Both the position numbers and the translations under genes were made by a program. A model generated the notes under the pieces. The model did not search any database. It had not been told where the DNA came from and worked only from the letters and a program-made list of their open reading frames with translations. A DNA stretch of 64,000 nt, taken from positions 62,001-126,000 of the forward strand of contig NZ_BOOP01000034.1 of the NCBI RefSeq assembly GCF_016863295.1. The letters run 5' to 3'. Origin of the DNA: Planotetraspora phitsanulokensis (GTDB lineage: Bacteria; Actinomycetota; Actinomycetes; Streptosporangiales; Streptosporangiaceae). Shown here in pieces: positions 647-35,487 of this stretch (its first letter is position 1; every line of letters begins with the position of its first letter).

Positions 647-3600
647 ATGCTCGACATGTTCGTGAGGACCTACCGCGATCGGACGTACCGGTTTCCCACC
701 ATGTTGCGCCACAACGGGATGGTCGTAGCCTTCGCGATGGACGAACGGCGCCGTATCCATTACACGGTGCTCGACCTGACGACGGGGTCCTCCGACGTGG
801 CGGCGTGGTCGGCGAATCCGCGTGAGCTGGCGTTCCCCTCCGAGTTGGCGCGGGTAGGGTACGGCGTCGCCGAGCAGGTCCAGATGCCGGGCCGGATGCC
901 GGGCAGCGGCGCGGACACGTTCATGTCGTCGACCGCGCGGCTGACCGCGGCGGTCCCATTCCAGGTGCTGTCCGACGGCCGGTACCTGTACGTGCTTCGG
1001 CAGGCGGTCGTCGAGCCGTCGCCCGAGGCGCTCCTCGCATCCCACACCATGCTTGCCGACCCGGCAGCGGACCCCGCCGCCGTGGCCGCGGCGCGGGAGG
1101 TGGTCGTGGACCACGAGAACATGGTCTACGCCGCCAATGCCGCCGATGGCCCGGTGCCGGTGGTCGACGGGAGACTGCTCATCGACCGGTTCCTGCTCGT
1201 GGGGGCCGAGTTAAGGCCCAAGCGGGAGGTCCGTTTCAAACGCAGCCGCAGCAGGACCCGGCCGCAGAGCGGCAAGGACAGCCTCGGCGCCGAGGACCTG
1301 GAGCGGCGGCCGTTCATCGAGCCCACTCAGGAACTGCGTTTCGTGTCCCCGCTGAACGGCGGTCGGTTCGCCGCGGTGCTGACCCCGACCAGTGTCGCCG
1401 AGGCCCTGCGATGGCAGATCTTCACCCACGACCGGACGGCGGGCCTGCTCTGGTCGTACAGCGTGGAACGCTCCTCCGACGGCCTGTTCGACACCCGGGG
1501 CTCGCATGCCTACACCTGTCTCGAACACGACGACGTCTACACGCTGACGCCCGGCACCTGCCCGCACCCGCTCTCTAAGGAAGAGCCCGGGAAAGTCTGC
1601 GGCGAGGATCTGGTGCCGAAGGTCGGCACATCCGGCTCGGCCGGCTCGGCCCTGTCGTTCACCGGAGACAGTGACCAGGTCCGCCTCTCCGGCGTGCCGG
1701 CGCTCGGGCACGAGTTCACGATCGAGGCGTGGATCCGGCCACAGGGGATCGGCAAGGAACAGGCCCTCGTAGGCGGCATCACGAAGACGCCGGCGAAGGC
1801 GGCTCCGTCGGTTTGGCTCATCGACGGGTCGCGGCTGCGGATCGGCTTCGGCGACGGGACGGCCTGGCACGAGGTGGTCACCGGCGACATCGTCACGCAG
1901 GGTGAGTGGAACCACGTCGCCGTGACCTTCGATCCGGCCACCTCGCTCCAGGTGTACGTCGGCGGTGGGCTGAGGCACATCACCTCTGATCTGCGCGGTC
2001 TGGCCCCGGCGCTCGCGCCGGTCAGGTCCGTCGGCGCCGGGTTCGCCGGGCTGATCGACGAGGTGCGGTTCTGGTCGTACGCCCGATCGGGCACCGATGT
2101 ACGGGCGGACCTTCGGCACCGCCTGTCGGGCGCAGAGCCGGGGCTTGCGGGTTACTGGCGCTTCGACGAGGGGACGGGCGGCACCGTCTGGGACCAGACG
2201 GGCAGTGGCGCGAGCGGGAGCATAGTGGGCGCAACAGCCTGGGTGACGTCGGACGCGCCGATCGGGATCGGGAGCGAGCTGACCCGCTCGGCGCTGCGCG
2301 TGGACGGCCGTACGGTGGACGGGGGCCTCGCGGCCGCTCTCTACTACCAGCAGGAGCCGGTCTCCGGTGGCTACGACCCCGCGACCGCCAAGCCGTCCAA
2401 GCAGGCCGCGCGGGTGATGCTCGCGGCTGTCACCTCGGCCGATTCCGGCGGCTCCGGACAGGAGGTGGCCGTGCTGGACTTCGGGGTGGGAGGGGACGGC
2501 CGGCTGGCGGAGGTACCGACCGTGGTCCGTCTCGTCGAGTTGGCCGCCGAGGGCGCCCAGGGCGAGCCGACGACGGAGCTGCTCGACCAGATCGCGGAGG
2601 ACGAGAGGGTCCTGGCCGGGCTGGACGCTCAGATCGCCGAGCAGACCGTCCTCATCGAGGCCGACCAGGCCCGTGCCGATGGCCTGCGGACATTTCTCGA
2701 CGAGGGAGGCGCGCCGTCGACGAATGCGCTGGATGTGTACTGGGGCCTGCTGGGCCTCATCGACGCCCGGGACGCGGTCGCCCGCCTCGAAAGGGCCCCA
2801 GGGATCGATCCGACGTTCCTCGCCCAGGCCAGGGCCAACGTGGACCGGCTGACCACCGAACTGCGCGCATGGCAGCGGCAACTGGCCCAGACGCTCCCCG
2901 GCCACCGCGCCCTGCTCGCGTCGTACCGGGAAGCCTGGACGGCGAAGACGGCTGAGGTCGCCGACAAGCGGGCGCGCCTGACGGGGGACAGGCCGCTGGT
3001 GATGCCGCTCGTCCAGCTCGACCGGCGGGGACTCGGGGTGACGGGCGCCGTACTCGGCTTCGCGCGGACCGGCGAGGCGCCGGTGCTGTTCGACAGCGCC
3101 CTCGGCCGGCTCTCCCTGTATTTCCGGGGGCCTGCCGGTGAGTTCTCCGCCGCCTCCTACTACGCGCTCACCGCACGGGCCAGGCTGACGCTGCCGACCG
3201 GGGGAGACATCCCCGGCGAGCTCGTCTTCGTCGCCAGGGGCGCCGAACCCGATTATGACGGGCTGACCATCGTGACCACGAAGGATGCCGACCCGGACCT
3301 CTGCACTCTCACCATTACCCTGCCGCGTGACGGCGGCGCGATCACCGAGACATGGGGACGGATGCCGCGCGATCCGGCGGTGCTCGCGGCGATCCTCAAC
3401 GGGACGGCGGCCACGTCGTTCGCCGGGCAGGCGGACCCGGTCGACGGCAAGACGGGGACGTTGTCGTTCCTCGACGGGCTGCGGGTGCCGCTGGCGGCAG
3501 GGGACCTGCTGCGGGTCGGCACCGGGCTCGTCGTGGTCGCCGACGCTGTGCGGGCAGGGGCCGTGAGCGTGCCGATCGAGCCGTCGGAGCTCGACCTACG

Positions 3601-6600
3601 CGCAGGCGGGCCGGTGACCCGCCTCCCCTACGATCCCGCCGCGGCGTCCACCACCCAGCCGGGCGCGGATCTGTCGGCCGGATCCCTGCTGGTCGTGGTG
3701 GACGCGAGCCGGGCGGCGGGGGCGGTGACGGTGGAGGCATCCGACACCGCGGCGGCGACGCGATCGTGCGGGTGGTCGGCGGTCACGCCCGGAACGACCC
3801 TGAACTTCGACGGCCAGAACACCCTGGCGGGCGTCATCCACGAGACCGCGCTGCAGTTCTACATCAACGTACAGAACCCGGCTGACCACCAGGCGGTGGT
3901 GATCCCCGCCGTCGGCGACCTCAACGTGGTGGGCGACATCACCATCGAAGCGTGGGTCCGTCCCGACGTGATCACGGGCTCGCACACGATCGTGGGACGC
4001 GGCTACACCCTTGACCCGCCGGCCGAGGTGGTGCTGCGGATCTTCGACGGCATGTACCAGGTCGGATCCTGGGACGGGACCGACCATATGGTCAGCGTCC
4101 CGGTCGATCCGCAGGACCTCGGCACCTGGGTGCATCTCGCCGGGGTCTACGACGGCGCCACCCAGACCTGGCACCTCTATCGCAACGGCGTGCGGGTGGG
4201 TTCGCTGGCCGCCGCCGTGGGTGCCATCGAGGTCCCCGCGGGCTGGTCGATCGGAGCCTCGGCCGATGGCGAGGACCGCTTCTTCGTCGGAGGCATCGAC
4301 GAGATCCGCCTGTGGAAGCACGCCCGTACGGCGCTGGAGATCGCCGAGGGCGTGCGGACGCGGCTGACCGGCGCCGAGCCCGGCCTGGCGGGTTACTGGT
4401 ACGGCGACAACGGCGTGCTGCGCGACCACACGCCGGCCGGAAACCACGGCAGCACCAAGGGCAGGCCCTGGGCCCTGGAATCCCCGCCCGCCCTCACCGG
4501 CACGGAGACTTTCTCGGCGCCCGGCGATCTGAGCATCGAGACCTGGGTCAAGGCAGACCAGCCGGGGGACCTCGGCTGGCTGGTCCAGCACCGCTCGGTC
4601 ACCGAAGAAGGGGAGGACTACGCCCTCGCGTTGCGGCAGGAACGTCCGGTGGCGTTCGACGGGACCACCGGATACGTCGAGATCCCCCTGCCCGACACGC
4701 TCAGGAACCTCACGACCATCACCATGGAGGCGTGGGTCCGCGCCGATCACACGGACGGCGTCCGCACGGTCGTCTCGCACGGGCCTCAGCGCGGCCCCGG
4801 CCAGAACGCCCAGGTGGCGCTGCGCATCGCCGGCGGCACCTACCAGGCGGGGTGCTGGAACGGCACGGACAACTGGGCGATCGCCGCGATTCCCTCCGGA
4901 GAGGGTGGCCACTGGGTTCACCTCGCCGGGGTCTACGACGGCACGGCGTGGCACCTTTACCGCAACGGGGAGCTGCTGGCGTCGAAGCAGACGACCGTCG
5001 GCCCGCTGGAGGTCAACGGCCCCTGGGCCATCGGCGCCGCCGTCACGCCCCAAGGGGGGATCGAGGCGCCCTTCGACGGCGACGTCGACGAGGTGCGCAT
5101 CTGGAAGCGTGCCCGCGGACCGGTCGAGATCGCCGCGGACATGCGACGGCGGCTCGGCGGCCGCGTGGCCGATCTGGCCGGCTGCTGGCGCGGTCCCCTC
5201 CAGTTCGGCCAGATGCCGAATGTGAGCGGGCCCGACCACGGTTACATCCACGGCGGGGTCACCCCCGCGCCGCTCAGCACCGAGGCCGCACCCCTGGCCG
5301 GCTATCGCGTGTACGCCTACGCGGGCGGCACGCAGGCCGAGACCTCCGAGCCGTTCCCCGCCAGCACCTGGACCCATCTGGCGCTGGCCGTCAACCGATC
5401 CCGGGCGTTGAAACTCGGCGGCGGCGCGTACCTGGACGCGGGCAGCGCCGCGAGTCTCAACCTGACCCGTGACCTCACCATCGAGGTGACGGCGAAACTG
5501 GACGACGCCAAGGCACATGGCCTGGTCAGCCGGGGAGCGGTGGGCTCCGGCACGGGCGGCACCGGCGACGCCGTGCCGTACTCGCTCGTCATCGACGCCA
5601 AGGGCCGGCTGGTTTTCACCTTCGAGGACAACACGCGTGCCGTCCATACCTACACCTCCTCGCCGAAGGAGCTGTTGCCCGGCGGCGTCCACCGGTTCGC
5701 GGTGACCCGCAAGCGCACCCTCGGTGCCGACACCTCCCAGGGCTCCTGGGACGAGATCGTCTTCTCGATCGACGGCGAGCGCGTCGGCACGGCGACCTAC
5801 CGCGGGCCCGAGGTGGGCTCGAACACCGATCCCCTGACGATCGGCCTCGTACGGCGCGCCGGGGCGGCCGACGTGACGCTGCGGGGCACCCTCACCGAGA
5901 TACGGCTGTGGAACACGGCTCGGGACGTCGCGCTCATCGGAGGTCCGATCACCGGCGAGGAACTGGGCCTGGTCGGCTGGTGGCGGCTGGAGGAGCAGGA
6001 GGGCAACGTCGCCTTCGACGTCAAGGGCGGCAACGACGCACTCCTGCACGGTCCGGCCACGTGGGTACGGAGCCCGGATCCGTCCGCGTCCCGGCTCGTC
6101 ATCTACCGAGACGGCCTCCCCGCCGCGCTGATCCCCTCGCCCGGCTTCCTGGCCGGCCTCGGGTTCGTCGACGGGTTCTCGCTGGGCGGGTCCTCGACCG
6201 GGCCGGGCGGGCTGCGTGGGCAGCTGGACGAACTGCGCGTCTGGCGAACGGAGCGCACCGCCGAGCAGATACGGGACAACATGTTCCGCCGCCTGGCCGG
6301 CGAGCGGGAGGACCTCATCGCCTACTACACCTTCGACGCGCAGGCGAACCGGCGGCTGGCGGACGAGGGCCCACGAGGCAACGACCTCACCGTGCGCGCC
6401 GGGTCGTACACGCTGTCCACGGCGCCTATCGGTGATGACGTGCCCCAGGCCCGCGACGCCATCGCGAGCACGGCGACGCCGTTCAACACGACGATCGACA
6501 GTCCGCCCGCGGTCGCGGAATACGCCATGCTTGAGACCGGCACCGACGGCACGTCGGCCGGTGTCTTCAAGCGGTGCCACGCCTATATCGAGGACGGCGC

Positions 6601-8251
6601 GTGGCGGCTCGTCACCGGCTTCAAGATCGGCGACGTGGTCACCGAGTGGGTGGGCCAGGCGCAGTTCGACCCGCAGCTCATCGGCTTCATCGAGGGTGCG
6701 CCGCCGGTCCCGAGCGAGAACCTCACCGGGGACGACGACTACGCCGGGGCGAGCTCGGTCGCGCTGACCGAGGCGACCACGACGACCTACACTTACGCGA
6801 GCTCACGCGACGCCGGTGTCGACGCCTCGCTGGAGGTGTCCGCGTCCACCGGAGACAACTCGGAGATCCTGGCCGGGCTGATGGAGATCGAGGCGCCGCT
6901 GGGAGTCGGCATCGGCCAGGTCGAAATGATGCCCGTGGAGCAGGCCAAGGTCAGCGTCGGCGTGTCGGCGAGTGTCGAGACGTCGGCGAGCTGGCTGCAC
7001 GACACGCAGACCGGGCAGGGAATCAAGGCCACCCGCGTGAGCGGCCTCGAACTGGCTGGCGGCAAGGAGAGCGTCCCGCTGTTCGCCGACCTCGGCAGCA
7101 GGTACGTGCCCGACAACGCCGGCATGGCGCTCGTGCAGTCTCAAACCGCGGACGTCTTCGCACTGCGCCTCGCCCACACCGGCGCCCTCATCGCCTACCA
7201 GATGCGTCCCAACCCGGACATCCCCGAGGACTGGAACATCATCACGTTCCCGATCAATCCGCAGTACACCAAGCAGGGCACCCTCGACGGCAAGGTGGGG
7301 CGCGACGCCGACCCCGATTATCCCAATGCGCTGACATACCGGCCCGACTCCAGCTATTTCAAACCGATCGAGGCGTACCAGCTCAAGACCCGGATCGAGC
7401 GCGAGCAGCAGGAGATGGCGACGCTGTTCGACCAGTACGACGCCGGACCGGCCGCGGCGGGGACCATGCCACCGCTGGTACGGCGCAACCTGGTCAACAC
7501 CTATGTCTGGACGGCCGACGGAGGCCGCTACGCCGAGACGCAGGAGACACTCGACACCTACTCCGAGACCGTCGGCGGGTCGTACAGCCTCACCGCCTCC
7601 GCCGGCGGAGAGGTCAGTACCGACGTCTCGGTCTTCACGGTCGCCGTCACCGTCGATGTCAAGGCCAGCCTGGGAGGGCACCTGGAACTCAACGTCTCCA
7701 AGACCCGCGACTCCGAGACTTCCTTCGGGCTGGAGGTGAACCTGCCGCCCGGCCAGGACATCACGGCGGTCGACGGGCTGGGACAGCGGACGCGGGTGCC
7801 GGGCAAGGTCGACGCCTACCGGTTCATGACCTTCTACCTCGCCCCGGCGACCGATCACCACGACCTGTTCTTCAACCAGGTGGTCGACCCGATCTGGCTC
7901 GACCAGTCCGGCGAACCGTCCGCCGTCGCGCTACGCCAGGCCAGGCAGGACGGCAAGCGGCCGCCGTGCTGGCGGATCCTGCACCGCGTCACCTACGTCA
8001 GCCGGGTGCTCCCGCGGCTCCAGGACAACCCCGCACCGATCGACCGAGCCCTGCAGGAACTCGACATCGACAGCAACTACGAGCTCATCAAGCTGATCGG
8101 CCCGTTCGTCCGCGACAAGACCTCGCGATACGGCGACTTCCGGGCGGCCGTCGACACCGCGATCAACCGCTACCTGCCCGCCCTGTCGCCCCACCGAAAG
8201 GAGATCCTGGAGTTCCTGGCTTTGTACTACGGCGTCGTCGGCGCCTCATAG
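647..8251 (+). CDS. Giant 2534-residue multi-LamG protein with nested LamG domains, unknown function
   Basis: The frame stays open further upstream to 488, but ATG 647 has a strong ribosome binding site 7 bases away. There is no signal peptide or membrane segment. Order of parts: a unique beta-rich N-terminus (1-330); LamG1 (about 334-541, with FTIEAWIRP and DEVRFWSYAR); a charged helical, probably coiled-coil segment (about 643-782); a beta-rich linker; LamG2 (about 1055-1282). Then comes a LamG that seems split into three pieces (about 1283-1333, 1550-1587, 1816-1923) by LamG3 (1333-1549) and LamG4 (1588-1815). The C-terminal 600 residues hold an IEGAPPVPSEN motif and two long alternating Ser/Thr/Val beta-type stretches (about 2045-2130 and 2305-2365). 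LamG domains usually bind sugars or proteins. The protein is either cytosolic or released by a non-Sec route. Its stop overlaps the convergent regulator by 6 bases. Function is unknown. Confidence 0.9.
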   Translation: MLDMFVRTYRDRTYRFPTMLRHNGMVVAFAMDERRRIHYTVLDLTTGSSDVAAWSANPRELAFPSELARVGYGVAEQVQMPGRMPGSGADTFMSSTARLTAAVPFQVLSDGRYLYVLRQAVVEPSPEALLASHTMLADPAADPAAVAAAREVVVDHENMVYAANAADGPVPVVDGRLLIDRFLLVGAELRPKREVRFKRSRSRTRPQSGKDSLGAEDLERRPFIEPTQELRFVSPLNGGRFAAVLTPTSVAEALRWQIFTHDRTAGLLWSYSVERSSDGLFDTRGSHAYTCLEHDDVYTLTPGTCPHPLSKEEPGKVCGEDLVPKVGTSGSAGSALSFTGDSDQVRLSGVPALGHEFTIEAWIRPQGIGKEQALVGGITKTPAKAAPSVWLIDGSRLRIGFGDGTAWHEVVTGDIVTQGEWNHVAVTFDPATSLQVYVGGGLRHITSDLRGLAPALAPVRSVGAGFAGLIDEVRFWSYARSGTDVRADLRHRLSGAEPGLAGYWRFDEGTGGTVWDQTGSGASGSIVGATAWVTSDAPIGIGSELTRSALRVDGRTVDGGLAAALYYQQEPVSGGYDPATAKPSKQAARVMLAAVTSADSGGSGQEVAVLDFGVGGDGRLAEVPTVVRLVELAAEGAQGEPTTELLDQIAEDERVLAGLDAQIAEQTVLIEADQARADGLRTFLDEGGAPSTNALDVYWGLLGLIDARDAVARLERAPGIDPTFLAQARANVDRLTTELRAWQRQLAQTLPGHRALLASYREAWTAKTAEVADKRARLTGDRPLVMPLVQLDRRGLGVTGAVLGFARTGEAPVLFDSALGRLSLYFRGPAGEFSAASYYALTARARLTLPTGGDIPGELVFVARGAEPDYDGLTIVTTKDADPDLCTLTITLPRDGGAITETWGRMPRDPAVLAAILNGTAATSFAGQADPVDGKTGTLSFLDGLRVPLAAGDLLRVGTGLVVVADAVRAGAVSVPIEPSELDLRAGGPVTRLPYDPAAASTTQPGADLSAGSLLVVVDASRAAGAVTVEASDTAAATRSCGWSAVTPGTTLNFDGQNTLAGVIHETALQFYINVQNPADHQAVVIPAVGDLNVVGDITIEAWVRPDVITGSHTIVGRGYTLDPPAEVVLRIFDGMYQVGSWDGTDHMVSVPVDPQDLGTWVHLAGVYDGATQTWHLYRNGVRVGSLAAAVGAIEVPAGWSIGASADGEDRFFVGGIDEIRLWKHARTALEIAEGVRTRLTGAEPGLAGYWYGDNGVLRDHTPAGNHGSTKGRPWALESPPALTGTETFSAPGDLSIETWVKADQPGDLGWLVQHRSVTEEGEDYALALRQERPVAFDGTTGYVEIPLPDTLRNLTTITMEAWVRADHTDGVRTVVSHGPQRGPGQNAQVALRIAGGTYQAGCWNGTDNWAIAAIPSGEGGHWVHLAGVYDGTAWHLYRNGELLASKQTTVGPLEVNGPWAIGAAVTPQGGIEAPFDGDVDEVRIWKRARGPVEIAADMRRRLGGRVADLAGCWRGPLQFGQMPNVSGPDHGYIHGGVTPAPLSTEAAPLAGYRVYAYAGGTQAETSEPFPASTWTHLALAVNRSRALKLGGGAYLDAGSAASLNLTRDLTIEVTAKLDDAKAHGLVSRGAVGSGTGGTGDAVPYSLVIDAKGRLVFTFEDNTRAVHTYTSSPKELLPGGVHRFAVTRKRTLGADTSQGSWDEIVFSIDGERVGTATYRGPEVGSNTDPLTIGLVRRAGAADVTLRGTLTEIRLWNTARDVALIGGPITGEELGLVGWWRLEEQEGNVAFDVKGGNDALLHGPATWVRSPDPSASRLVIYRDGLPAALIPSPGFLAGLGFVDGFSLGGSSTGPGGLRGQLDELRVWRTERTAEQIRDNMFRRLAGEREDLIAYYTFDAQANRRLADEGPRGNDLTVRAGSYTLSTAPIGDDVPQARDAIASTATPFNTTIDSPPAVAEYAMLETGTDGTSAGVFKRCHAYIEDGAWRLVTGFKIGDVVTEWVGQAQFDPQLIGFIEGAPPVPSENLTGDDDYAGASSVALTEATTTTYTYASSRDAGVDASLEVSASTGDNSEILAGLMEIEAPLGVGIGQVEMMPVEQAKVSVGVSASVETSASWLHDTQTGQGIKATRVSGLELAGGKESVPLFADLGSRYVPDNAGMALVQSQTADVFALRLAHTGALIAYQMRPNPDIPEDWNIITFPINPQYTKQGTLDGKVGRDADPDYPNALTYRPDSSYFKPIEAYQLKTRIEREQQEMATLFDQYDAGPAAAGTMPPLVRRNLVNTYVWTADGGRYAETQETLDTYSETVGGSYSLTASAGGEVSTDVSVFTVAVTVDVKASLGGHLELNVSKTRDSETSFGLEVNLPPGQDITAVDGLGQRTRVPGKVDAYRFMTFYLAPATDHHDLFFNQVVDPIWLDQSGEPSAVALRQARQDGKRPPCWRILHRVTYVSRVLPRLQDNPAPIDRALQELDIDSNYELIKLIGPFVRDKTSRYGDFRAAVDTAINRYLPALSPHRKEILEFLALYYGVVGAS

Positions 8252-32146: not shown

Positions 32147-32545
32147 CAATCAAGGCCGCGACCTGGCGGGATGGTTTATATGCACCCCTCACTGCCGGCC
32201 GCCGCCGTCCTGCCCGGACTGGTCGTGAACGCCGGCCGCAGGGCGGGAGCCGTACGGGATCGAGACCTCGGTACGGCCTCCGCCGCCGTGTGGCCACTTT
32301 CGCCACGCACCTCTTGACGAGCGAGTAAAGATCGTTAACACTCCGGAAACATGAGTCCCAAGCAGGATGACACCGCGGGCGGACAGATGGACGCGGGTCG
32401 TGCGGTGTCATCGGTCGCAGGGACAAGGGAGCAGAAGCTTTCATCGTTCTTCGCCTTTTCGTCGCCGACTTGCTGGCGGACGGTCAGGCACAACACCTAG
32501 TCGGCAGCGAGCGCGCACTCGCCCAGGGGGCATGAGGAGGTCATA
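32147..32545. other. Non-coding stretch upstream of the arabinofuranosidase gene
   Basis: No gene is supported. A degenerate operator with a perfect right half (CGTTAACA) sits at 32327-32340. The rest has no recognisable coding or repeat structure and probably includes decayed sequence plus the promoter of the next gene. Confidence 0.45.
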
Positions 32546-32559
32546 TGTTAGCGCTAACA
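32546..32559. promoter_or_regulatory. LacI-family operator 1 (perfect 14-bp palindrome)
   Basis: TGTTAGCGCTAACA is a perfect palindrome with central CG, the standard look of an actinobacterial LacI operator. It lies 82-95 bases before the ATG of the arabinofuranosidase gene and probably overlaps its promoter. Confidence 0.75.
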
Positions 32560-32564
32560 CGCCA

Positions 32565-32578
32565 TGTGAGCGCTAACG
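32565..32578. promoter_or_regulatory. LacI-family operator 2
   Basis: TGTGAGCGCTAACG is an imperfect copy of operator 1, offset by 19 bases. Two sites about two helical turns apart suggest cooperative binding of two repressor dimers. Confidence 0.6.
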
Positions 32579-32640
32579 CGACCCGCACTGACCACGAGGG
32601 ACCTCAGACCGAACGCAGAGTCACAACCGAGGAGAGGGAA

Positions 32641-35487
32641 ATGACAAAGAGGATCCCCAGACGCGATGTGCTGCGCCTGGCCGCCCTGACAGCCGCCACT
32701 CCGCCCGCACTCGCGTTGCTTTCGCTCGCCGGAACCGGCCCGGCCCAGGCCGCGTCGGCTACGCCGACGGCCTGGGCCCCACGCACCGACATCCCGACGC
32801 CCGCCGGCTGGGTCGTGAAGCCCTTCGCCAACGATCAGGTCAGTCTGCTGGACGGCAGTCTGTTCACCGCCAACCGCGACCGGATCCTCAACTTCCTGCG
32901 CGCCTACCCGGCCGACCGGATGCTGGCCAACTTCCGGGCCACCGCCGGTCTGGACACCCGCGGGGCCCAGCCACCCGGCGGCTGGGACGACGCGACCGGC
33001 AACCTGCGGGGGCACTACTCCGGACACTTCCTGAGCGCGCTGGCGCTGGCCTACGCGGGCACCGGCGACGGCGCTTTCAAGGACAAGGCCGACTACATGG
33101 TCACCGCGTTGGGGGAGTGCCAGGACGCTCTCGCCGCCACTGTGGGGCAGCCGGCCCCGCCTCCCACGCCCGTCGCCCGGGTGGCCGGGAAGTCCGGCAC
33201 GGCGGTGAAGCTGAGCGGGCCCCAGTATGTGGCGCTGCCGTCCGGCATCGTGAGCGGGCTGCGCGACTTCACGATCGCCGTCTGGGTGAACCCGACGGTG
33301 ATCAGCACCTGGTCGAGGATCTTCGACTTCGGCACCGGCACGACACGCAACATGTTCCTGGCCGTGAGCGCCGGTTCCGCGCCGAGATTCGCGATCACCA
33401 CCAGCGGCGGCGGCGGCGAGCAGCGGATCAACGGCACGGGCCAGCTGCCCGCCAATCAGTGGACGCACGTCGCGGTCACCCTGTCGGGAGGCACCGGAAC
33501 GCTCTACGTGAACGGCGCGCCGGTCGGCACCAACACCGCCATGACGTTCACGCCGTCCAGCCTCGGCTCGACCGGTAACAACTGGATCGGCAAGTCGCAG
33601 TACGGTGACGCGTACCTCAGCGCCGCCGTCGACGAGTTCCGGATCTACGACCACGCGCTGAGCGCGGTGGAGGTCCAGGCCATGAACTCCGGCGGGGACG
33701 GGGGCGGCGGCACCGTGGCCTGGTACCGCTTCGACGAGGACGGCGGCGACAAGGCCGTCGACTCTTCGGGCAATGGACGGGACGCCCGCCTGGTCTCCGA
33801 GGCGAGCGGCCATCCCGGCCCGAGCCATCCCGGATTCCTGGCCGCGTATCCGGAGACGCAGTTCATCCAACTAGAGCAGTTCGCGACGTACCCCACGATC
33901 TGGGCGCCCTATTACACCTGCCATATGATCATGAGGGGCCTGCTCGACGCCTACCAGCACGCAGGCAACGAGCAGGCGCTGGAGATCGTCATGAAGATGG
34001 GCGACTGGGTCTACAGCAGGCTCGGCCACCTTCCGCGGGCGCAGCTCGACCGTATGTGGAGCATCTACATCGCCGGCGAGTACAACGCCATGAACGCGGT
34101 GATGGCCGACCTCCATGCGTTGAGCGGCAAGGAGGAGTACCTCGTCGCCGCCAGGTGCTTCGACAACAGCGCGCTCTTCACCGCGACGGTGAACGACCAG
34201 GACACGCTGGACAGGAGGCATGCCAACCAGCACATCCCGCAGTTCATCGGGTACCTCTCGGTCTTCGAGCAGTCGGGGGAGCGTGATTACTTCACGGCCG
34301 CCGTCAACTTCTGGGACATGGTCGTCCCTCACCGCACCTTCACCGACGGTGGTCTGGCCGGCCCGCTCGACAACGGCGAGCTGTTCGGAGCGCGCGACGT
34401 CATCGCCGGGACAATCGGGACCAACAATGCCGAGACGTGCGCCAGCTACAACATGCTCAAGCTGAGCAGGGGCCTGTTCTTCCACACGGCGGACGCGAAG
34501 TACATGCAGTACTACGAGCGCGCCCTGTACGGTCAGATTCTCGCGTCGCGGAGAAACACCGACAGCACGACCGACCCGCTGCTGACCTACTTCATCCCGA
34601 TGCGGCCGGGCGTCACGCGCAGTTATGGCAACCTCGGCACCTGCTGCGGCGGGACCGGGCTGGAGAGCCACGCCAAGTTCCAGGATTCGATCTACTTCCG
34701 GTCGGCCGACGACTCGACTCTCTATGTGAACCTCTACATGGCCTCGGTTCTGAACTGGCCAGAGAAGGGGTTCACGATCCGGCAGTCGACGAACTACCCG
34801 ACCGATCCCGCTGGAACGACGACGCTCACGGTGGACGGCTCGGGTCCCCTCGATGTCAAGCTCCGCGTGCCGTACTGGGTCGAGAAGGGCTACGCGGTGC
34901 GGGTCAACGGGGTCGATCAGAAGATCGACGCCGTTCCCGGAACCTACGTCACCGTGAGCCGGGCCTGGGCCAAGGGCGACAAGATCCAGATATCGATGCC
35001 GTTCACCCTACGCGTCGAGAAGGCCTTGGACATCCCGACCACCCAAAGCATCGCCTATGGCCCCGTTCCTCTGGTCGCTCAGAGTGACGAGAACACCTAC
35101 CGAGAATTCTCCTTCTACAAGAACTTCACCTTGGACGGAGACCTCATCCACGCGATCACGCCCACCACCCCGATGAACTTCACGACGCATGGTCTGTCGC
35201 TGGTCCCCTTCTACATCAACGACACCAAGCGCTACCACGCCTACTTCCATCGCGTCGAGCCGGAGATCTTCTTCGGTCAAGTGGACTCCGGCGTGCCCAA
35301 CTACGACCGAGGCGACAATGTGACGTTCCTCGACGCCGTCTGGGCCAAGGCGCCCTTCGCCAACCGCGGACGGTTCCAGAGCACAGTGGCCAAGACCGCC
35401 GAGGAGTGGGTCGGCGCCGGACTGCTCACCTCCGAAGAGAAGGACAAAGTCGTTTCCGCTGCCGCCCGGGCGAGGCTGGACAGTTAG
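32641..35487 (+). CDS. Tat-exported GH127/GH146-type beta-L-arabinofuranosidase with LamG insertion
   Basis: The protein has 948 residues. The ATG at 32641 has GAGGAGAGGGA upstream; the frame is open to 32545, but that part contains operators. A twin-arginine leader reads PRRDVLRLAAL with cleavage near PAQAAS, so it is exported folded. The (alpha/alpha)6 domain carries the zinc/cysteine active site: Glu580 (NGELFG, candidate acid/base), Glu598 and Cys600 (AETCASYN), Cys668-Cys669 (GTCCGGTG). These match the nucleophile and zinc ligands known in HypBA1. A LamG domain (about 166-396) interrupts the catalytic domain between ECQDALAA and PGFLAAYPE. The enzyme releases terminal beta-L-arabinofuranose from plant glycans. 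It is likely controlled by a LacI-type repressor through the two upstream operators. Confidence 0.9.
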   Translation: MTKRIPRRDVLRLAALTAATPPALALLSLAGTGPAQAASATPTAWAPRTDIPTPAGWVVKPFANDQVSLLDGSLFTANRDRILNFLRAYPADRMLANFRATAGLDTRGAQPPGGWDDATGNLRGHYSGHFLSALALAYAGTGDGAFKDKADYMVTALGECQDALAATVGQPAPPPTPVARVAGKSGTAVKLSGPQYVALPSGIVSGLRDFTIAVWVNPTVISTWSRIFDFGTGTTRNMFLAVSAGSAPRFAITTSGGGGEQRINGTGQLPANQWTHVAVTLSGGTGTLYVNGAPVGTNTAMTFTPSSLGSTGNNWIGKSQYGDAYLSAAVDEFRIYDHALSAVEVQAMNSGGDGGGGTVAWYRFDEDGGDKAVDSSGNGRDARLVSEASGHPGPSHPGFLAAYPETQFIQLEQFATYPTIWAPYYTCHMIMRGLLDAYQHAGNEQALEIVMKMGDWVYSRLGHLPRAQLDRMWSIYIAGEYNAMNAVMADLHALSGKEEYLVAARCFDNSALFTATVNDQDTLDRRHANQHIPQFIGYLSVFEQSGERDYFTAAVNFWDMVVPHRTFTDGGLAGPLDNGELFGARDVIAGTIGTNNAETCASYNMLKLSRGLFFHTADAKYMQYYERALYGQILASRRNTDSTTDPLLTYFIPMRPGVTRSYGNLGTCCGGTGLESHAKFQDSIYFRSADDSTLYVNLYMASVLNWPEKGFTIRQSTNYPTDPAGTTTLTVDGSGPLDVKLRVPYWVEKGYAVRVNGVDQKIDAVPGTYVTVSRAWAKGDKIQISMPFTLRVEKALDIPTTQSIAYGPVPLVAQSDENTYREFSFYKNFTLDGDLIHAITPTTPMNFTTHGLSLVPFYINDTKRYHAYFHRVEPEIFFGQVDSGVPNYDRGDNVTFLDAVWAKAPFANRGRFQSTVAKTAEEWVGAGLLTSEEKDKVVSAAARARLDS

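Follow-up and report, generated by a model that had tools for sequence, protein, structure and literature searches.

The locus and the layout of the protein

The window, by which is meant the whole stretch of 64,000 nucleotides of Planotetraspora phitsanulokensis DNA that was analysed, carries a long gene for a protein with several LamG domains, translated without internal stop. The features of the gene and its product are listed below with their positions in the window. The host is the LamG domain that lies in pieces, and B, I1 and I2 are the whole LamG domains found between those pieces.

647..8251, + strand: gene for the nested-LamG protein, 2534 amino acids from the ATG at 647
647..1636, + strand: N-terminal region, residues 1-330; conserved, 45-96% identity to six relatives compared
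1676..2104, + strand: LamG domain A, uninterrupted, residues 344-486; LamG profile, 116 bits, 1.1e-37
2282..3766, + strand: middle region, residues 546-1040; coiled-coil-like stretch by eye only
3782..3838, + strand: host LamG piece 1 (first strand, PG....FDG motif), residues about 1046-1064; family alignment anchor
3845..4477, + strand: inserted LamG B with tail, residues about 1067-1277, core 1082-1233; 153 bits, profile 5-156
4478..4645, + strand: host LamG piece 2, residues about 1278-1333; profile 11-59, independent profile columns 5-38
4646..5293, + strand: inserted LamG I1 with tail, residues about 1334-1549, core 1338-1496; 163 bits, profile 1-156
5294..5413, + strand: host LamG piece 3, residues about 1550-1589; profile 67-98, independent profile columns 57-83
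5414..6088, + strand: inserted LamG I2 with tail, residues about 1590-1814, core 1591-1761; 115 bits, profile 2-152
6089..6436, + strand: host LamG piece 4 with tail, residues about 1815-1930; 43 bits, profile 88-156, independent profile columns 81-141
6437..8248, + strand: C-terminal domain, about 600 amino acids, conserved; no known family

The reading frame is open from a GTG at 488, upstream of the ATG at 647, and homologous open frames of similar length are present in other genomes. A search of the whole protein against Pfam at E up to 1 found Laminin_G_3 as the sole family, in five stretches, and the N-terminal region had no Pfam match at E up to 10. The later part of the middle region (residues 820-1040) is homologous to relatives as far as the host first strand. 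No signal peptide was seen by eye at the protein start, and the most hydrophobic 19-residue mean in the protein was 1.58, with no strongly hydrophobic segment. Antisense to the nested region runs an open frame of 994 codons (window 3596-6580, - strand), which is no evidence of a gene because the DNA is so GC-rich. The window encodes a second LamG protein at 32545-35487 on the + strand, a GH127 beta-L-arabinofuranosidase with one ordinary LamG.

Sequence evidence for one LamG domain in four pieces

A preliminary description of this region had read three separate segments in order as one LamG domain, the gaps being filled by two complete LamG domains. The segments were placed correctly to within a few residues, and they are ordered along the LamG profile whether this is the family profile, grown from LamG copies of the window protein and its relatives, or an independent one. 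Both of the proposed inserts, I1 and I2, are real, but the count was too low, as B is also nested. Comparison with sequence profiles, and for piece 1 and B with relatives, confirmed that one LamG domain is cut into four pieces by three whole LamG domains.

With the family profile the matches along the window protein were residues 1285-1332 to profile positions 11-59 (8.6 bits), 1338-1496 (I1) to 1-156 (163 bits), 1559-1588 to 67-98 (6.4 bits), 1591-1761 (I2) to 2-152 (115 bits) and 1806-1876 to 88-156 (43 bits), with an extra chance-level match at 1039-1074 (-1.1 bits). This order is that of a broken LamG copy enclosing two complete ones. Since the family profile may itself contain host fragments, an independent profile was built from 29 LamG copies, all from other proteins, and the host pieces were compared with it singly, never joined. 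In these profile-profile comparisons piece 2 matched columns 5-38 (probability 74%, E 2.7e-5), piece 3 columns 57-83 (94%, E 1.1e-7) and piece 4 columns 81-141 (96%, E 1.7e-9), while the best probability among 40 control stretches, all drawn from the C-terminal domain, was 5%. Against Laminin_G_3 (PF13385) the host was covered by separate pieces in order, leaving columns 39-56 uncovered, whereas A, B, I1 and I2 matched at 48 to 101 bits (Pfam cut-off 27.6 bits), starting at profile positions 1-4 and ending at 148-151 of 151. B, I1 and I2 are thus each a complete domain of the same family, matched nearly end to end.

That B is also nested follows from the position of the host first strand (about 1046-1064), which lies upstream of the LamG preceding I1 (core 1082-1233). 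In relatives without B the PG....FDG motif, which marks the first LamG strand, is followed after a short interval by the next host strand. In the protein from Calothrix (L045) the anchor occupies 1295-1303 and the host match resumes 16 residues further on, at 1319; the window protein has the anchor at 1048-1056 and the next host piece near 1285, a gap of about 230 residues which holds B. Residues 820-1066 of the window protein, which include the last part of the middle region, align to 1066-1303 of the Calothrix protein at 5e-32. Continuity of the host at the B site was established by alignment for Calothrix L045 and by anchor-to-strand spacing for L014, L022, L104, L053, L048 and L112, and the same B arrangement as in the window protein was found in L009 (P. 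silvatica), L010 (Actinomadura nitritigenes) and L023 (a Modestobacter MAG). Piece 1 alone gave non-significant probabilities of 1.7% and 3.7% against the profile, with controls up to 3.0%; it is too short for such a test, and the nesting of B rests on the family alignment. MAFFT put the host TIEAW strand of two-insert members onto B, and B was therefore judged from the anchor alignment instead.

On the LamG fold B would sit after the host first strand, I1 in the turn before the strand YRVYAYAGG, and I2 in the turn between WTHLALAV and LVIYRDG, each inserted copy carrying its own C-terminal tail segment. In profile coordinates slot 1 lies near 56-66, between llviddg and rlefgf, and slot 2 near 95-100, between hlavtydgs and elrlyvnG. 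Both slots are read as beta turns on the strength of the sequence pattern and of what is generally known about this fold. The preliminary description had called such loops permissive, a claim that is only partly supported. Extra residues were counted in 136 LamG matches of the family, each spanning at least 100 profile positions; position 92, next to slot 2, led with 904 residues in 48 copies, and positions 56-57, beside slot 1, also took some. In 25 non-family LamG copies, however, extra residues were most numerous at positions 71, 67, 130 and 118, and slots 1 and 2 were not the top places. Sequence comparison shows directly how the pieces are ordered, how far the inserts extend and which relatives have them. 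We infer that the four host pieces share one beta-sheet and would fold together into one sandwich, from whose turns the inserts would hang by two linkers each. The result would be a compact branched cluster of four LamG domains as opposed to beads on a string.

Relatives, insert states and kinship of the inserts

Relatives were collected by means of the C-terminal domain. Searches with it found 16 loci in the genome collection and 9 plasmid records (35-49% identity), and no relative among phage records and viral contigs at the sensitivity used. It was found in 18 of 297 genomes of the window's own family and in 13 of 295 genomes of a second genus, one of which (G890) has the same protein as Streptomyces bambusae (L014), and in an even sample of 396 genomes across the phylum the window's own genome alone had it. 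The nearest named relative found for the gene was that of the actinomycete Planotetraspora silvatica (L009), with 97% identity in the C-terminal domain. Seven members (L045-L051) are on plasmids, namely S. clavuligerus pSCL3 and pSCL4 and plasmids of Streptomyces NBC_00690, Calothrix, Salipiger, Planktothrix and Nostoc, a location that fits the patchy spread across phyla. The member on the Calothrix brevissima plasmid (L045) has about 1000 extra C-terminal residues (2619-3686), in which there are two more LamG copies at 2899-3051 and 3520-3676. Shortened or interrupted frames were also seen (L021, L078, L080, L084, L087, L088 and L090-L093), for which assembly error is possible.

The family set comprised 44 proteins, each longer than 1500 amino acids and distinct in sequence, with the window protein included and three members (L023, L024 and L118) incomplete or short; it spans Actinomycetota, Cyanobacteriota and Pseudomonadota. 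Insert states were assigned by the authors from the patterns of LamG hits. Three inserts were assigned to 4/44 members (the window protein, L009, L010 and L023), B not being present in the other 40 as scored, and two inserts to 29/44, the assignment of L049 and L106 being the least sure because their pieces score weakly. I2 was the only insert in 9/44 (L048, L053 and L097-L103), and two members, L050 from Planktothrix and L051 from Nostoc, had no nesting and whole LamG copies in line.

A first automatic detector of split domains was too strict, in that L023, all nine one-insert members and several with two inserts scored 0; it was replaced by a loose and a stricter rule applied to single-sequence searches with the independent profile. 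Under the loose rule the split at slot 2 was detected in 38/44 members (all except L050, L051, L099, L114, L047 and L049), and under the stricter rule in 33/44 (missing L111, L096, L112, L114, L047, L053, L099, L049, L106, L050 and L051), which leaves out 9 of the 42 members called nested. Of the 33 members to which an I1 was assigned, 24 showed the split at slot 1; the misses were L017, L020, L111, L096, L113, L049, L106, L009 and the window protein itself. None of 880 decoys, in which only stretches outside full LamG copies were shuffled, passed any of these rules, for slot 1 or for slot 2.

Some relatives have a naturally empty slot. In the nine I2-only members the host is one run across slot 1, from profile positions 10-17 to 100-105, and this continuity was also seen with the independent profile; the junctions were inspected in seven of the nine. 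The same flanking strands that are joined directly in L053 are parted by a whole LamG in L105. At slot 2 only L050 and L051 are without I2, and they have an unbroken LamG at the corresponding place in the protein, which is a possible orthologue of the host.

These observations weigh heavily against the possibility of a tandem LamG array with decayed copies, in which the host pieces would be independent remnants between intact copies and not parts of one domain. Pieces 2 and 3 are indeed weak alone, as the bit scores given above show, and in-line LamG copies are ordinary, occurring in L050 and L051. Nevertheless, in many members the pieces cover a single profile one after another and hardly overlap, the host passes unbroken through slot 1 in the I2-only members, and piece 4 of the window protein is 44% identical to that of Calothrix and of a Marinobacterium MAG, from two other phyla, which indicates that this piece of the host is under constraint. 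The tandem explanation is largely refuted by the one-insert members and is considered very improbable. The nesting proposed in the preliminary description is upheld by the order along the profile, by the relatives without I1 or B and by the retention of the arrangement in most of the 44 members. That one LamG host holds whole LamG copies at three points of its chain is the best overall reading and is regarded as highly probable.

Phylogenetic analysis of the LamG copies revealed different histories for the slots. A careful tree was made from 75 copies, with host pieces, near-duplicates and the copies of L049, L106, L118 and others left out. I2 formed one clade (100/86, in 200/200 bootstrap trees, 19/19 rows), and in a larger quick tree 35/37 I2 rows were in one clade, the two outside being the long-branched I2 of L049 and L106. 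I1 was not one clade (0/200 bootstrap trees, 15 rows), and a single I1 clade was rejected (p-AU 3.8e-45); the I1 of L022 was unplaced. These patterns indicate that slot 2 is old and stable and that slot 1 holds copies of different kinship, which leaves room for separate gains there. The repeated internal duplication suggested by the preliminary description gained support in two cases. The I1 of the window's clade and B formed one clade (100/99; 47% identity in the window protein), and the I1 of Calothrix joined its own domain A (98/89; 45% identity), so that copying within the same gene is the likely source of B and of the Calothrix I1. For I2 such duplication was not demonstrated, a donor not being found among the copies compared.

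A tree of the C-terminal domain was made with 44 rows and in a 40-row version without L049, L106, L024 and L118, and was rooted on L050 and L051, an assumed root. Four changes suffice to explain the insert states on this tree, compared with a mean of 14 for shuffles. The three-insert members were one clade (99/94, 40 rows). The I2-only members fell in two groups, a single group being rejected (p-AU 3.1e-6): eight are a clade that, together with L104 and L105, makes up a group of ten (100/100), and L048 was weakly placed (81/61). As the I1 of L104 and L105 is of the main actinobacterial kind, the clade of eight has probably lost its I1, and L048 probably has too. Given the assumed root, the most parsimonious history gives the ancestor of the nested group two inserts and has B added later, and whether I1 was gained or lost depends on the rooting with L050 and L051. 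As read from the trees, I2 was inserted once and early, slot 1 held LamG copies of different kinship by lineage, through fresh insertion or exchange between copies, and B, a near copy of the I1 of the window's clade, arose once in the ancestor of that clade.

The mixed kinship of I1 could have arisen differently, if slot 1 of the nested host was filled only once and the LamG copies within a protein then underwent gene conversion, so that the present relationships would not be due to fresh insertions. I1 is in the same turn in the lineages inspected. The N-terminal LamG A of L109 and L110 is closest to their own I1 (that of L109 falls inside the I1 copies of the careful tree, 100/92), so that A was also copied or exchanged with the nested slot. 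Slot 1 can, on the other hand, be empty, as in 9/44 members, and there is no donor near enough for a recent event, I1 being at most 52.5% identical to A and 47% identical to B. Gene conversion is a serious possibility, to which somewhat less than an even chance is given. The window protein and L009 are identical (100%) over I1 and 92-97% identical in other regions; at the DNA level identity is 97.5-99% in the 200-base bins from 4600 to 5199 and 93-98.5% in the rest of the gene, and identity over I1 is hardly above that of the rest.

A source of the inserts outside the gene itself, in other genes or in other genomes, would suit the place of the window-clade I1 and B group in the tree, adjoining non-family copies (92/92), the failure of the trees to place the I2 donor and the finding of members on plasmids. 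It sits poorly with the fact that, among the copies compared, B and the window-clade I1 are mutually nearest and the Calothrix I1 is nearest its own A, and is thought unlikely. A bolder form of the nested reading makes the LamG host an acceptor with fixed slots, into which different donor copies of the same gene were inserted independently at the same place in several lineages and from which they can be cleanly released; this is given about an even chance. If it is true, the gene represents a naturally occurring series in which one fold holds 0, 1, 2 or 3 nested copies.

Known systems and possible function

The host and the other copies belong by profile to the same family as the LamG domains of bacterial multi-LamG proteins, the concanavalin A-like Laminin_G_3 (PF13385). 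The non-family LamG copies examined differ in being whole, as 0/20 non-family ORFs were split according to the first, weak detector, which also gave 0 for many nested members, and many of these ORFs were cut by short flanks. No description of a LamG nested in a LamG was found in the open literature at the level of titles and the beginnings of abstracts, among the matches listed.

A useful comparison is with Si3 of the cyanobacterial RNA polymerase beta-prime subunit, in which hybrid-motif insertions are nested to six levels (PMC13114784). The two systems are alike in that small domains were inserted repeatedly in one region and single hosts have several inserts (PMC13114784); the Si3 hosts are, in our reading, partly of the same class as their inserts (PMC13114784). 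They differ in that insertion in Si3 is recursive (PMC13114784), whereas the LamG host takes up to three whole copies side by side at separate turns, and in that some LamG relatives lack the copy in one slot or have one of different kinship there. The survey of domain insertions in the same source counted 48,551 events, of which 65.8% were between different homologous groups (PMC13114784). By subtraction about a third were within one homologous group, so that insertion within a superfamily is not rare (PMC13114784). The A1-B-A2 topology is common to the surveyed insertions and the LamG nesting, but inserts in the survey are usually smaller than their hosts (median 115 vs 199 residues; PMC13114784), while LamG host and insert are alike in size. 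The words concanavalin and jelly have 0 occurrences in the main text of PMC13114784. What sets the present case apart is that one host carries several whole copies, similar to it in size and side by side, and that relatives display gain, absence and exchange.

Domain insertion is usually known only as an end state. The LamG relatives offer steps: the host may lack I1 or B, the inserts number one, two or three, and the same slot can contain different copies. They provide a readable record of a fold nested inside itself, with copies present, absent or exchanged at fixed places, and allow tests of the tolerance of a fold to whole-domain insertion in its turns and of the movement of copies within a gene. 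A practical caveat for annotation is that such proteins are misread if LamG matches are counted as tandem domains, and a general multiple alignment misassigned to copy B strands that belong to the host in two-insert members.

LamG domains bind glycans and proteins, and theirs is a common binding-type fold. By analogy the LamG cluster is likely to serve multivalent recognition, in a fixed geometry, of a glycan or other surface ligand; the paired linkers of a four-LamG cluster would present the binding sites in such a geometry. The C-terminal domain, which is strongly conserved, would do the conserved job of the protein. It is common to Actinomycetota, Cyanobacteriota and Pseudomonadota, is 48-97% identical to those of 13 relatives aligned, and is the best conserved large region in comparison with six relatives (48-97%), with the N-terminal region close behind (45-96%). 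It had no Pfam match in 14 members and no match to PDB sequences at E up to 5, and, considered as a pore-former, it fell into no recognised pore-former family by either route. Alternating-polarity stretches near 2055-2119 and 2309-2375 could be membrane-inserting hairpins, but the signal is weak (z 1.9-2.9), and equally high values occur elsewhere in the domain.

Searches of the non-LamG parts against Pfam, PADLOC and PDB sequences gave no usable match, a sub-threshold Pfam match to At5g48480-like_C (E 0.027) being taken as chance, and there was no shared theme among the gene neighbours at the loci inspected. The whole protein had weak matches in the PDB that touch the LamG stretches, to pappalysin-1 and two others (E 0.0018-0.0048). 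Seven PHROGs matches overlapped or adjoined the LamG copies, five of them to families of unknown function and two to virion structural proteins.
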